A stretch of DNA of 13,225 nt, taken from contig JAITDQ010000012.1 of NCBI GenBank assembly GCA_031282485.1, forward strand, positions 1-13,225. The letters are read 5' to 3'. The DNA comes from Tannerella sp. Its GTDB lineage: Bacteria; Bacteroidota; Bacteroidia; Bacteroidales; Tannerellaceae. The notes beneath the pieces were generated by a model. That model did no database searches and was not told the origin of the DNA. It saw nothing but the letters and a program-made list of their open reading frames with translations. The translations under genes were made by a program, and so were the position numbers. Shown here in pieces: positions 3,062-8,710 of the stretch. Numbering within the stretch: the stretch's first letter is position 1; the number at the start of each line of letters is the position of its first letter.

Positions 3062-3078
3062 TTTTTTGTGTATTTTCG
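3048..3078 (+). promoter_or_regulatory. Possible promoter of the 7TM-HD gene
   Basis: TATTTTCG at 3071-3078 differs from TAnnTTTG at one position and has a T-rich block 20 bp upstream instead of a clear TTTG. It is the best plus-strand candidate in the divergent gap and would give a leader of roughly 40 bases. Confidence 0.3.
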
Positions 3079-3125
3079 CCATAAAAAAATTACATTTTCA
3101 GTCAATCATTAATACGATAATACTT

Positions 3126-5195
3126 ATGAATACAAAAAGATCCGTTATTCTGTCAGTCTTTTACATCGTTCTGAGCGCTATTGTCATTGCGCTGTTTTTT
3201 CCGCGTGAAGGGAAATTCCGCTATCAGTTTAATGAAGGCAAGCCATGGAGATACGGCTTGCTGACGGCGCCGAACGACTTCCCGATCTATAAGGAAACAA
3301 GTGAAATTGATGCGGCAAAAGACAGCATCCGTAAAAAATTCGAACCTTATTTTCGCTTCAACCCCGGCGAGGAGAAAAAGAAACTCGAAGCTTGGCACGA
3401 ACGCATGAGCGCTTTGCAACATGCGGGTGTCCCTTACTCTACATTATTATATATAGATAAAAGTCTCCGCCGGATATACGATAAAGGGATTATTTCGAGC
3501 AGCGAGCTGGCCTTGATGAACACCGAAAACCGAACCCGCATAACGGCGCTCACAAACAGTGTGGCGGACGTCAGGCCGCTGACGGATTTCCATTCGGTAA
3601 AATCGGCTTATGAAGAAATCATAAACAATGCGCCGGAACACATTGACAGGGAGATTCTTATGGAATGTAATATCAATGAATACCTGACCGAAAATGTTTT
3701 TTACGATCCCGAAACATCGAACAAAATACTGGATGATTTAATCCAAAATGTCCCGCTGTCCAGCGGCATGGTGCAGGCCGGCGAACGTATCGTCGACCGC
3801 GGGGAGGTGATTGACAGTCGCACATACAGCGTACTGCGTTCGTTGAAAATCGTACATGAAACAAAATCCGGGGGAGCGCAACGTCAAAATGTAATATTTA
3901 CAGGACAGCTTGTTCTTATATTCGGAATAATGGCCTGTTTCGGGCTTTATATAGCGACGTTCAATTCGAGGATATTTCTCAAGCGCAAAGATTTAATTTT
4001 CATCCTGTTATGCATCCTTGTATCATGTATTTTGTCGGAAATGTGCGTTAAATACAACTTTATGAATATTTACATCATTCCTTTTGCAATCATTCCCATT
4101 GTTATACGCACGTTTTTCGATTCACATACGGCGCTGTTTACTCACCTGATAACCGTAGCGATCTGTTCGCTGACGGCGCTGTTCCCGTACGAATTTCTGC
4201 TGTTGCAGATACTGACATGTATTGTTGTAATATTCAGCCTGAAAGATCTGTCACAGCGTTCGCAGTTGATTAAATGCGCCATATTTGTTTTCCTTTCGTA
4301 TGTTGTATTTTATTTAAGCCTCGTGGTTTATCAGGAAGGCGATTTCAGTAAGATAAACTGGATGATGATGCTGTATTTCAGTATCAATTTCATACTGTTA
4401 TCGTTCTCATACATGCTTATTTATGTGCTGGAAAAACTTTTCGGATATTTGTCCCCCATTACACTGATAGAGCTTTCGAACCTGAACAATCCTCTCCTCA
4501 AAAAACTTTCGGAAACGGCGCCCGGCACGTTCCAGCACACGCTTCAGGTATCCATATTAGCCTCCAAAGCCGGCGAAAAGGTAGGCGCGGACACACAACT
4601 CATACGTACCGGCACATTATATCACGATATCGGAAAAGTGAACAACCCCGCATTTTTCACGGAGAACCAGAAAGGATTTAATCCGCACGAAAAACTGTCT
4701 TTCGAACAAAGCGCCCAGATCATTATCGCCCATGTTACGGACGGCATAGCCATGGCGGAAAAAGCCGGAATACCTAAAAAAATCATTGATTTTATAAGTA
4801 CGCACCATGGTAAAGGCGTTGCCAAGTTTTTTTACAATTCTTTCCGTAACGAGTTCCCGGACAGGCCGGTTAATGAAGCTTTATTCACCTATCCGGGGCC
4901 TAACCCGTCTACCCGGGAAACGGCCATACTGATGATGGCCGATTCCGTAGAGGCCGCATCCCGCAGCCTGAAAGATTACTCGGACGAGAGCATTAAAAGT
5001 CTGATAAACAAAATTATTGACAGCAAAATAGCGGACGGACTGTTAAAAAATGCTCCGTTGACATTCGATAATATTGAAGTGATAAAAAGCGTGTTTTTGG
5101 AAAGATTGAAAACCATGTATCATACGCGCATAAGTTATCCCGAACTGAACGAAGAAAAAACGTCCGTCACAGAGGATCAACATCATAATGCATAA
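3126..5195 (+). CDS. 7TM-HD family phosphohydrolase (PgpH-like, likely c-di-AMP phosphodiesterase)
   Basis: The 689-residue membrane protein has the full PgpH/YqfF layout: one N-terminal membrane segment (about 7-25), a large extracytoplasmic 7TMR-HDED domain (about 26-255, with ERIVDRGEVID near 220-230), a seven-helix membrane block (about 258-437) and a cytoplasmic HD domain (about 455-665). The expected metal ligands are present: H471, the H500-D501 pair in YHDIGK, H536, H560-H561 and D606. In Listeria PgpH this family hydrolyses c-di-AMP, so turnover of that messenger in response to an outside ligand is the likely role; the substrate here is inferred. I chose the ATG at 3126, which directly precedes the first membrane helix; an in-frame TTG at 3066 would add 20 residues of unlikely leader. 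It is divergent from gltX, and its last 29 bp overlap the end of priA. The overlapping tail is a non-conserved polar extension. Confidence 0.92.
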   Translation: MNTKRSVILSVFYIVLSAIVIALFFPREGKFRYQFNEGKPWRYGLLTAPNDFPIYKETSEIDAAKDSIRKKFEPYFRFNPGEEKKKLEAWHERMSALQHAGVPYSTLLYIDKSLRRIYDKGIISSSELALMNTENRTRITALTNSVADVRPLTDFHSVKSAYEEIINNAPEHIDREILMECNINEYLTENVFYDPETSNKILDDLIQNVPLSSGMVQAGERIVDRGEVIDSRTYSVLRSLKIVHETKSGGAQRQNVIFTGQLVLIFGIMACFGLYIATFNSRIFLKRKDLIFILLCILVSCILSEMCVKYNFMNIYIIPFAIIPIVIRTFFDSHTALFTHLITVAICSLTALFPYEFLLLQILTCIVVIFSLKDLSQRSQLIKCAIFVFLSYVVFYLSLVVYQEGDFSKINWMMMLYFSINFILLSFSYMLIYVLEKLFGYLSPITLIELSNLNNPLLKKLSETAPGTFQHTLQVSILASKAGEKVGADTQLIRTGTLYHDIGKVNNPAFFTENQKGFNPHEKLSFEQSAQIIIAHVTDGIAMAEKAGIPKKIIDFISTHHGKGVAKFFYNSFRNEFPDRPVNEALFTYPGPNPSTRETAILMMADSVEAASRSLKDYSDESIKSLINKIIDSKIADGLLKNAPLTFDNIEVIKSVFLERLKTMYHTRISYPELNEEKTSVTEDQHHNA

Positions 5196-7617
5196 TAATC
5201 TGCTTGAAAAGAGGATATTCCTGCATTTCCCGGTGCACGGCTTCCAGCGCTTTACGTGTCTCGGAAACCGACACGGATAAATCCATTTTCAGCATGATTT
5301 TACGTACAAACAATGTCTGGACGCGGGCTACGGGAGGATACAGCGGGTTTGATACACAATCTCCGAGAATGGCTCTTAATTTTGCGGAATAGCGGTCGGC
5401 CATATCGTCCAGAACATCTTCCCTGCGACAACGCAGGACAATCATTATGAGGCGTGTATAGGGCGGATAATGAAAGGCATAACGCTCTTTCAACTGCATC
5501 TGCGCCATGCCGGGATAATCGAAATCCCGTATCATTTTCAGCAGCGGATTATCGGATTGGGACGTCTGCAAAATAACAGCGCCCTTTCCGTCGCTGCGCC
5601 CTGCATGTCCGCTTACCTGATACATCATCTGAAAAGCTCTTTCGCAGGCGCGGAAATCGGGAATATTCAGCAGACCGTCCGCATTCATAATCCCTACAAC
5701 GCTGACATTCTCAAAATTAAATCCTTTTGTAATCATCTGCGTACCTGTCAGGATTTGCGTTTTCCCTTCTTCAAATTCGGTCAGAATACGCCTGTAAGCG
5801 TTTTGCGTACCTGCGGCATCCGTATCTAACCGGGCTGTCTTTGCAGAGGGAAACAGCGCAACAATCTCTTCTTCCACTTTCTCCGTACCGAAGCCCTGCA
5901 TTTTAAGTTCCGCGCTGCCGCATGACGGACATTTCGAAGGTAACGGCGCCGAATAACCGCAATAATGACACACTAAGCGGCATAACCGCTTATGATACGT
6001 AAGGCTGACGTCGCAGTTGACACAGTGCGGTATCTTGCCACATGCCTGACATATCATCATCGGAGCAAAGCCGCGACGGTTCTGAAACAGGACAATCTGC
6101 TCGCCTTTTGATAGGGCAGCTTCTATTTTTTCACGAAGTAAGGGCGAAAACAGGGTATTGTTCATGCGTTTCTTGCGACGCAAATCCCTGACGTCAACAA
6201 TGTCTATTTTCGGAAGCCGTTCCTTTTCCTGCCGGCTGCCCGGTTTTACCAACCCATATTTTCCGCTCAACGCCCATAAATACGATTCTAAGGACGGCGT
6301 TGCCGATTCCAGCAATACCTTGGCGCCATGTTCGAGAGCCAGCATCATCGCCGTATTTCTGGCATGATAACGCGGCGCCGGATCCTGCTGCTTGTAGGAG
6401 GGATCGTGTTCCTCATCAACAATAATCAATCCCAGACGTGCAAACGGCAAAAAAACGGATGAACGGATACCTAATACGACTACCGGCTCTTCCGTTTGCA
6501 GCAGGCGATTCCATATCTCAACCCTTTCGTTATCGGAAAATGCGGAATGATACACCAAAAGCCGGCGGCCGAAAACCTGTCGCAGACGATCCGTTATATG
6601 CGTGGTAATCGCTATCTCCGGCAATAAATATAGCGCCTGCCGGCCTTTCGACAGGGTATCGTGTATTATATGAATATATATTTCCGCCTTATCACCCGGC
6701 GTAACACCGTACAACAGCGTGATATTCTTCGTTTCAAAAGATTTTTTCACGTCTTCATATACTTTCTTCCGGACGTCCGATAAAATGGGCAATATACCGG
6801 CGCCGGCAGCCGAAGATGTGATGCGACTTACCGTTCTTTCTTCGGAAATAAAAATTCCCCGCTTTACCAGCGTGTTCAGCACGGGCGGTTTTACGCCCGA
6901 ATATGCTAACAGCTTTTTCTTTATAATATATTCGGGTTTGGTTCCGCTAAGATCAAGATAATCCAGAAATAATTTCTCCTGCTGCTTCGACCTTTTAAGC
7001 ATGGCCAAAACAAGATTTATATCTTTTTCACTGCGTATATTCCCGGCTAAGCAAATATACGTTTCCGTTTTATCTTTAAATCGCTGTTTCAAGGATTCTT
7101 TTATCGCTATTGCGCCTTTTTCCAGTAAGGAATTAACGGAAGGGAAAACGTTTTTCAGACCGGAAATGCGCTCCAGTTCCGAAACCGATAAAACGCCGGA
7201 CGACGAAAATGCGTCCATGATTTTTTGCTCGTTGGGTTTAAGCGGCTCCTCCGCTTCATATTCGGGGTCTATCGTAACAATCGTTTCGCTCTCAAGCTTT
7301 AAGCCGGAAGGCAACGCCACCCGGAAAACCTCCCCTGTCGAGCATAAATAATAAGAAGATATCCATTGCCAGAAACGTAACTGATAAAAACGTATTACCG
7401 GATTTTCATCCGGTAATACGAAAATATCTTTGATTATCATATCATTTTCGGGGGCTTCATCCTGTATCCCGGCAACAATTCCCGTATAATAATGCTTTTT
7501 GCCGAAAGGCACAACCACACGACAACACACGGAAACAGCCTTTTCCATCATATCCGGTATACGATATGTAAAAGTGCCGGACAGAGGCAGCGGGACTATT
7601 ACTTGTGCATACTTCAT
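5167..7617 (-). CDS. priA: Primosomal protein N' (PriA) with altered ATPase motifs
   Basis: PriA recognises stalled forks and D-loops and starts reloading of the replicative helicase. The 816 residues include an N-terminal DNA-binding region (1-110), the SF2 helicase core, the zinc module and the family ending DVDPL. Eight zinc cysteines are intact as four CxxC pairs (C523/C526, C532/C535, C550/C553, C563/C566), as are DEEH (401-404) and the NRRGFAP stretch. Several ATP-site positions differ from what I know of the family: R283 where the Q-motif glutamine is expected (LSDVRKKVY), GVTPGDKAE (304-312) instead of GVTxSGKTE, LLESATP instead of LLGSATP (E437), and QVSGHAGR instead of QVSGRAGR (H671). 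The P-loop lysine K310 is kept. The frame is unbroken. The identity is certain; helicase activity is doubtful. The gene starts 42 bp after the upstream OMP gene and may be co-transcribed with it. Confidence 0.95.
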   Translation of the reverse strand: MKYAQVIVPLPLSGTFTYRIPDMMEKAVSVCCRVVVPFGKKHYYTGIVAGIQDEAPENDMIIKDIFVLPDENPVIRFYQLRFWQWISSYYLCSTGEVFRVALPSGLKLESETIVTIDPEYEAEEPLKPNEQKIMDAFSSSGVLSVSELERISGLKNVFPSVNSLLEKGAIAIKESLKQRFKDKTETYICLAGNIRSEKDINLVLAMLKRSKQQEKLFLDYLDLSGTKPEYIIKKKLLAYSGVKPPVLNTLVKRGIFISEERTVSRITSSAAGAGILPILSDVRKKVYEDVKKSFETKNITLLYGVTPGDKAEIYIHIIHDTLSKGRQALYLLPEIAITTHITDRLRQVFGRRLLVYHSAFSDNERVEIWNRLLQTEEPVVVLGIRSSVFLPFARLGLIIVDEEHDPSYKQQDPAPRYHARNTAMMLALEHGAKVLLESATPSLESYLWALSGKYGLVKPGSRQEKERLPKIDIVDVRDLRRKKRMNNTLFSPLLREKIEAALSKGEQIVLFQNRRGFAPMMICQACGKIPHCVNCDVSLTYHKRLCRLVCHYCGYSAPLPSKCPSCGSAELKMQGFGTEKVEEEIVALFPSAKTARLDTDAAGTQNAYRRILTEFEEGKTQILTGTQMITKGFNFENVSVVGIMNADGLLNIPDFRACERAFQMMYQVSGHAGRSDGKGAVILQTSQSDNPLLKMIRDFDYPGMAQMQLKERYAFHYPPYTRLIMIVLRCRREDVLDDMADRYSAKLRAILGDCVSNPLYPPVARVQTLFVRKIMLKMDLSVSVSETRKALEAVHREMQEYPLFKQIIMHYDVDPL

Positions 7618-8398: not shown

Positions 8399-8457
8399 GT
8401 CAGAAAATAAGTGTTGCATTTTCCCATTATCGGCATTTCCGGATTATATTTTCTGAC
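8399..8457. repeat. 11-bp perfect inverted repeat with a 37-bp spacer
   Basis: GTCAGAAAATA at 8399-8409 is exactly complementary to TATTTTCTGAC at 8447-8457. The spacer has no strong internal pairing beyond short matches. It could form a long stem-loop, be the remains of a small mobile element, or be chance; no U-run follows on either strand, so it does not look like a terminator. Confidence 0.55.
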
Positions 8458-8710
8458 AATTCCTAAATATTCGGTATTCCCTATATAAATAAAGAAGGTG
8501 TTATTTTAAAAATATCTTTCGGATTTATCTTCAGCAGCTCATCGCAGGGAATTCAGCCGGTTCCGACTCGTAACATTTTTTTAGGATGAAATTTTTCTGC
8601 GAATATTCCCATATCTCTTACAATGCTTTGTCGAAAGAAGAACAGAGGAAAATACGCTGATGATACTATTTTCCATTGCGAATGGCAAAAAGGAAGGGAA
8701 AAGACGTTAA

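Follow-up and report, generated by a model that had tools for sequence, protein, structure and literature searches.

The priA gene studied here raises the question of what becomes of a replication restart helicase when residues around its ATP site are altered in an otherwise intact gene: whether it is still a motor, is decaying or has been retained for work that needs no motor. According to the portions of PMC4504706 available, bacteria in general conserve the helicase motifs of PriA well, Deinococcus-Thermus being the notable exception, and the reason for that conservation is open, because E. coli is not strictly dependent on the activity.

The gene occupies positions 5167..7617 of the window (the whole 13,225-nucleotide stretch of Tannerella sp. 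DNA analysed here) on the minus strand, reading 7617 -> 5167, and encodes 816 amino acids from an ATG start with no internal stops; all protein features given below lie on the same strand. The product scored 514.1 bits against the PriA model TIGR00595 (NCBIfam; cut-off 230.35) and matched PF17764, PF00270, PF18319, PF00271 and PF18074 in the order typical of PriA, that is, 3′-DNA-binding domain (residues 5–103; 7309..7605), DEAD domain, cysteine-rich zinc region (5920..6051), helicase-C domain and C-terminal domain (residues 719–815; 5173..5463). All eight zinc cysteines (residues 523–566) are intact, while a ninth cysteine (546) is not conserved, and the protein keeps NRRG and an undamaged C-terminus ending in DVDPL. 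An AlphaFold2 model built from 51 sequences gave a mean pLDDT of 83.6 and a pTM of 0.79, and its nine best PDB matches were PriA chains. Best matches and trees place the protein among Tannerella-like and Parabacteroides sequences and, in trees that contained no Deinococcus sequence, gave no indication of descent from Deinococcus-Thermus PriA. The canonical PriA proteins of Bacteroidales, from Parabacteroides and from members of the genus with an intact protein, share its domain order, its eight zinc cysteines and about 50–75% identity, but keep the ATP-site motifs that are altered in the window.

A convergent 7TM-HD hydrolase gene (3066–5195), which we take to be pgpH, shares 29 bases at its 3′ end with priA, a long way from the codons of the ATP site. 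The surrounding genome assembly comprises 2.56 Mb in 384 contigs and is 80% complete; the check for a second complete PriA proposed in the earlier note on this DNA found none in that 80%-complete assembly, so we dropped compensation by another copy as an explanation. We presume that such Tannerella sp. isolates are bacteria of termite or other insect guts.

Columns at least 97% identical among 163 canonical relatives were treated as near-invariant, and the window protein departs from nine of the 168 such columns: Q283R, G309D, T311A, Q340H, G437E, L459P, D634N, L644M and R671H. By alignment and codon reading, the Q-motif position carries arginine 283 (CGG; 6769..6771). Motif I, the P-loop, reads GVTPGDKAE (residues 304–312; 6682..6708), with G309D and T311A and with the Walker lysine K310 kept. 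Glutamate 437 (GAA; 6307..6309) stands directly before motif III SATP, motif V reads GTQMITKGFNF with D634N (5713..5745), and motif VI reads QVSGHAGR (5596..5619), with R671H (CAT) and the second arginine, R674, kept. Motif II is an intact DEEH (residues 401–404; 6406..6417). The earlier note had read the intact frame, the altered Q-motif, P-loop, pre-SATP and motif VI residues, the DEEH, the zinc cysteines and the DVDPL end from the letters alone, and translation and codons show each of them as described; the expected residues, which it had given as typical of the family rather than from an alignment, also hold in the alignment to the 163 canonical relatives. Solved PriA chains (E. coli and related) agree, with GSGKTE and QV[AS]GRAGR at the corresponding places.

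As a separate observation, many PriA of the genus that are intact, P0008, P0014 and L005 among them, have DEEQ rather than DEEH as motif II. The histidine at residue 404 (6406–6408 in the window) varies, while glutamate 403 stays, being kept in 263/263 database proteins.

In place of the P-loop GK[TS] and motif VI QxxGRxGR of an ATP-driven helicase the window protein has GDKA and QVSGHAGR, and with its catalytic motif residues substituted and the remainder of PriA kept it has the make-up of a pseudohelicase. On general knowledge of superfamily 2 helicases, from which we also assigned columns to motifs, we assume that G309 and T311 bind nucleotide and that R671 senses it. We infer from these substitutions that the window PriA has lost its ATPase; residual nucleotide binding may persist, because K310, DEEH and R674 are kept. 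Those residues, the retained NRRG and the spread of purifying selection over both helicase lobes could be taken to mean that the protein is still an ATPase and a normal helicase, its changes being tolerated or compensated by neighbouring ones. We consider this very unlikely, since several ATP-site elements (Q283, G309, T311, G437 and R671) are altered together, further conserved helicase columns (Q340, D634 and L644) have changed, and the related protein P0003 carries K310R, a P-loop lysine-to-arginine change that abolishes the ATPase and helicase activities of E. coli PriA (PMC4504706, in the part available).

Both key changes are shared with relatives. G309D and R671H are common to the window protein and to P0002 (85% identity), P0003 (83%) and P0004 (81%), and P0003 (L003) has independently added K310R, the change found in E. 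coli priA300. The earlier note had allowed that active PriA might carry the same residues; among 263 database proteins G309D occurs with R671H in these four alone, with 0 of the 263 having the pair outside them, and the solved chains have the usual residues. In a tree from which the motif columns had been excluded, these four proteins grouped as one clade (SH-aLRT 100). Because three relatives at 81–85% identity carry both changes, the altered residues are not a sequencing slip. A sequencing, assembly or binning artefact, which a fragmented genome of 384 contigs at 80% completeness might invite, is scarcely credible given that these relatives come from separate assemblies, that eight of the nine further window genes match ordinary families, and that the convergent priA–pgpH arrangement is also present in another genome (G013, contig C26).

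The codons for the two residues vary among clade members (GAT or GAC, CAT or CAC), so there has been time enough for silent change, and dS between the three members with DNA is 0.48–0.69. Recent loss or early decay, which the earlier note had held open, is therefore not supported for the window clade: all four lineages carry both changes, at that depth of synonymous divergence.

Selection on the gene points the same way. Whole-PriA dN/dS (NG86) within the window clade was 0.161 (0.123–0.209), 0.153 and 0.133; canonical PriA pairs gave 0.112, 0.110, 0.133, 0.190 and 0.203 (five pairs), with two more at 0.102. The L029–L034 PriA pair gave no value, its synonymous sites being saturated. RecG from the same eroded genomes gave 0.106 (one pair) and pgpH 0.078–0.109 (three pairs), so PriA evolves somewhat faster than either there; in four of the five canonical pairs, too, it outpaces RecG. 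With 0.23 changes per site, 17.3–25.5 stops would be expected in priA under neutral drift, depending on transition bias, and none is observed. Calculated by domain, purifying selection extends over both helicase lobes; speaking against maintenance, residues 463–520 show dN/dS of 0.17–0.24 in the window clade versus 0.025–0.10 in canonical pairs.

The changes that have accumulated in the clade at near-invariant columns fall in the helicase regions. With motifs I, II and VI set aside because they define the eroded set, 21/404 near-invariant cells of the helicase regions have changed, against 0/216 in the 3′-binding, winged-helix/linker, zinc and C-terminal regions taken together; as distinct substitutions, these are 9/101 helicase columns versus 0/54 non-motor columns. 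The 20 near-invariant columns in residues 1–105 are all kept (0/80 cells changed in the four-member clade), as are those in residues 701–816 (0/60 cells). The Fisher tests were post hoc, concern related sequences and serve as descriptions only.

A slow decay could nevertheless be imagined in which the genus no longer needs PriA and loses it stepwise, beginning with ATP-site residues, so that apparent maintenance reflects the short time since loss. We regard this as unlikely, given that dN/dS in the window clade is similar to that of intact PriA, with no stops against about 17–26 expected, and that no near-invariant column has changed in its four non-motor regions; for this clade the evidence favours maintenance over decay. 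The suggestion of the earlier note that a motor-poor PriA has been kept for a non-motor job is thus supported in part: retention is backed at the sequence level by clade sharing, purifying selection and near-invariant changes restricted to the helicase, while the loading job itself stays conjectural. We hold it probable that the window encodes a pseudohelicase PriA, kept as a platform for fork recognition and DnaB loading, in which loss of the ATPase and the loading role are both predicted.

Erosion of the motor recurs across the genus, a point that the earlier note had missed. R671 is lost in 26/195 alignment rows and GK[TS] in 15/195, with 14 rows having both losses, fractions that are raised by uneven dereplication (intact rows were collapsed at 93% identity, but any comparison with an eroded row at 99.5%). 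The fewest changes on the tree are 8 for R671 and 9 for GK[TS], the tree being midpoint-rooted with many weak inner branches. Counted raw, R671 is lost in 23/263 database proteins, which do not form a random sample because the three queries that retrieved them (the window, L026 and P0050) were themselves eroded; with one genome a species, 8/34 genus genomes with PriA are eroded, among them G038, a poorly aligned fragment. All 26 losses of R671 lie among the 100 rows of two Tannerella-like clades (62 + 38), as against 0/95 in the neighbouring clade; there P0209 (G309E) and P0250 (E402Q with R674G) differ at other core residues. These two and L006 (R674C), added to the 26 rows without R671, make up the 29 eroded rows, every one of which (29/29), like every canonical row (163/163), retains the full set of eight zinc cysteines. 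The two G004 pieces L036 and L037 were left out of the large alignment, L038 was left out of the trees, and L031 (taken as the same gene as L002) and L033 (not PriA) were left out throughout.

The eroded groups are the window clade; P0007 with P0011, the latter carrying K310T; P0021; P0050 with L035/G029; P0134; L026/G028 (K310P); and L029/G011 with L034/G030. A group of 13 database proteins, beside which the intact P0056 sits at a poorly supported place, now has H, Y, S, C or F for R671; its members retain long open frames and the eight zinc cysteines while this residue has drifted, which again argues against slow decay.

Such repeated residue loss among relatives suggests that PriA is useful without its motor. 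It could also mean that motor loss is itself favoured, PriA unwinding being harmful in the niche (for example through unwanted restart) and motor-dead alleles being repeatedly selected with fork binding kept. The minimum of eight changes for R671, the 26/100 rows in the two Tannerella-like clades against 0/95 next to them, and the separate arrival of G028 and the window clade at G309D would all fit. Over the eroded rows, however, R671 has been replaced by H, C, S, L, Y, N or F, a variety that fits relaxed constraint at least as well, and we judge selection for motor loss distinctly improbable, if less so than continued ATPase activity. More broadly, that the PriA motor is unnecessary or even harmful in this genus, with about eight separate conversions to a motor-free recognition and loading platform, is a tentative proposal to which we give a little less than an even chance.

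Constraint outside the motor is not uniform among the other eroded groups. Near-invariant cells have changed there in 4/258 and 5/239 cases in the 3′-binding region, 5/208 and 3/192 in the zinc region, and 0/195 and 7/165 in the C-terminal region. Their changed-cell rate in the 3′-binding and zinc regions is 0.016–0.024 versus 0.002–0.003 in canonical rows, which show 0.002–0.007 over the 3′-binding, zinc and C-terminal regions. Motif V, which was not used to choose rows, has 24/104 and 13/96 cells changed. Non-motor constraint in these groups is accordingly strong but somewhat eased, and the changed 3′-binding and zinc columns, like the many different kinds of erosion, speak for slow decay.

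Some PriA of the genus are also shorter. L027 (G022), L028 (G032) and L030 (G024) have open frames of 674–696 amino acids and L029 (G011) one of 772; from about residue 108 to 264–278 (to 179 in L029) the winged-helix/linker is either absent or so diverged that it gives no match. Other contigs (G016:C279, G030:C48, G029:C401 and G015:C157) carry short additional matches to the C-terminal portion of PriA, in open frames of 72–172 amino acids, which could be contig-edge pieces, contamination or old fragments.

Two further observations favour slow decay. The first is that 7/41 genus genomes (G001, G006, G012, G025, G026, G031 and G040) have no PriA over the TIGR00595 cut-off, one of which, G001, is 99% complete. 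The absences may be assembly gaps, because the other six assemblies are 59–81% complete and because in G001 the neighbours of the G002 priA locus—an outer-membrane-protein gene and one that we take to be YihY-like—also lack a DNA-level match; for that reason we do not regard a true priA deletion in G001 as established. Next to priA in G002 (L083, about 8445–8630) lies a repeat of about 180 bases that is dispersed in dozens of copies through G001 and G005, where a 7 kb query gave 52 and 45 matches, respectively, most of them in the repeat stretch; the repeat was not found in the window.

The second is the heavily eroded but full-length PriA of G028, with dN/dS of 0.274 (0.224–0.336) against its relative G033, raised relative to RecG of the same genome, which gave 0.162, 0.171 and 0.179 with three relatives; partly relaxed selection would have this effect. 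Some lineages may be in the course of losing PriA. Genome reduction was rejected as a cause, eroded genomes (2.3–4.9 Mb; G038 1.7 Mb at 60% completeness) overlapping intact ones in size.

RecG shows no parallel erosion. Motifs I, II and VI of RecG (GDVGSGKT, DEQHRFG and QLRGRVGR) are canonical in 32/32 full-length RecG, which come from the 32 of 41 genus genomes with a RecG over the cut-off. They include RecG from six genomes with eroded PriA (G000, which is the window's own, G019, G011, G028, G029 and G030), while G013 and G038 have no RecG over the cut-off. With RecG canonical and eight of nine other window genes matching ordinary families, general decay does not appear to be the explanation. 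DciA is present in G000 and in 38/41 genus genomes. A UvrD/PcrA-like match spanning model positions of about 2–724 is present in all eight eroded genomes (G000, G011, G013, G019, G028, G029, G030 and G038) and in 19/26 intact ones, with two more at 1–697 or 2–697, in counts made by eye of matches none of which exceeds the model's cut-off; it was dropped as a correlate of erosion.

For the pseudohelicase reading, we propose that the ancestor of the window clade lost ATP binding or hydrolysis when the P-loop glycine became aspartate and the motif VI arginine became histidine, and that further ATP-site and translocation residues drifted afterwards. An abandoned fork would still be recognised by the 3′-binding and C-terminal domains, and the zinc-binding region and helicase lobes would hold the lagging-strand arm and recruit DnaB, with DciA as the likely DnaB loader. 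Where the lagging arm is double-stranded, it might be cleared by a different helicase, for which RecG, itself intact, and a UvrD/PcrA-type protein are candidates.

Published work on E. coli, so far as the available parts of PMC10175261 describe it, offers a template: the zinc region of PriA, together with its second helicase domain and its C-terminal domain, forms a pore that surrounds ssDNA of the lagging strand, the docking site for PriB becomes exposed when PriA binds a fork, and ATPase-inactive K230A PriA was used for DnaB loading in vitro, leaving DnaB as the sole active helicase. By analogy, the kept recognition and docking domains and the lost motor would match this published division of PriA work. 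The window protein also resembles E. coli priA300 (K230R), an ATPase- and helicase-deficient PriA that still serves the PriA/PriB route of restart while disabling the PriA/PriC route (PMC9713433, in part). However, priA300 is a single laboratory change, whereas the window PriA carries several natural ones, and PriC was found in 0/9 genomes searched, so that it was discarded as a partner.

The closest natural parallel lies in Deinococcus-Thermus, in which, from what is available of PMC4504706, a lysine-to-arginine change in the PriA P-loop is phylum-wide (17 members aligned), and the D. radiodurans protein has no ATPase, retains DNA binding and shows evidence of DnaB interaction. Like those proteins, the window PriA departs at ATP-site motifs with the rest kept, and the same lysine-to-arginine change recurs in P0003/L003. 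The differences are that in Deinococcus-Thermus motifs I and II are affected across a phylum, whereas the window protein has an unaltered motif II, motif VI is altered most often in the genus, and many losses fall within one genus of Bacteroidota; inactivity, moreover, was measured in D. radiodurans and is here read from sequence. No report of a pseudohelicase PriA in Bacteroidota appeared, by title or start of abstract, among the matches listed, most subscription journals falling outside their scope, and the main text of PMC12483993, which deals with a Tannerellaceae bacterium living in symbiosis with a termite flagellate, does not contain the term ‘priA’. Pseudohelicase PriA is already a known kind of protein; what would be new is its repeated evolution within one Bacteroidota genus.

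An annotation of ‘replication restart helicase’ is no proof of helicase activity. With losses recurring in one genus that also has intact sister species, the question of why PriA motifs are retained can be tested by comparison, which could show which repair-gene, replication or lifestyle changes accompany motor loss and which surfaces are indispensable. If our reading is true, intact and dead PriA in sister species would separate the role of the motor from that of PriA itself.
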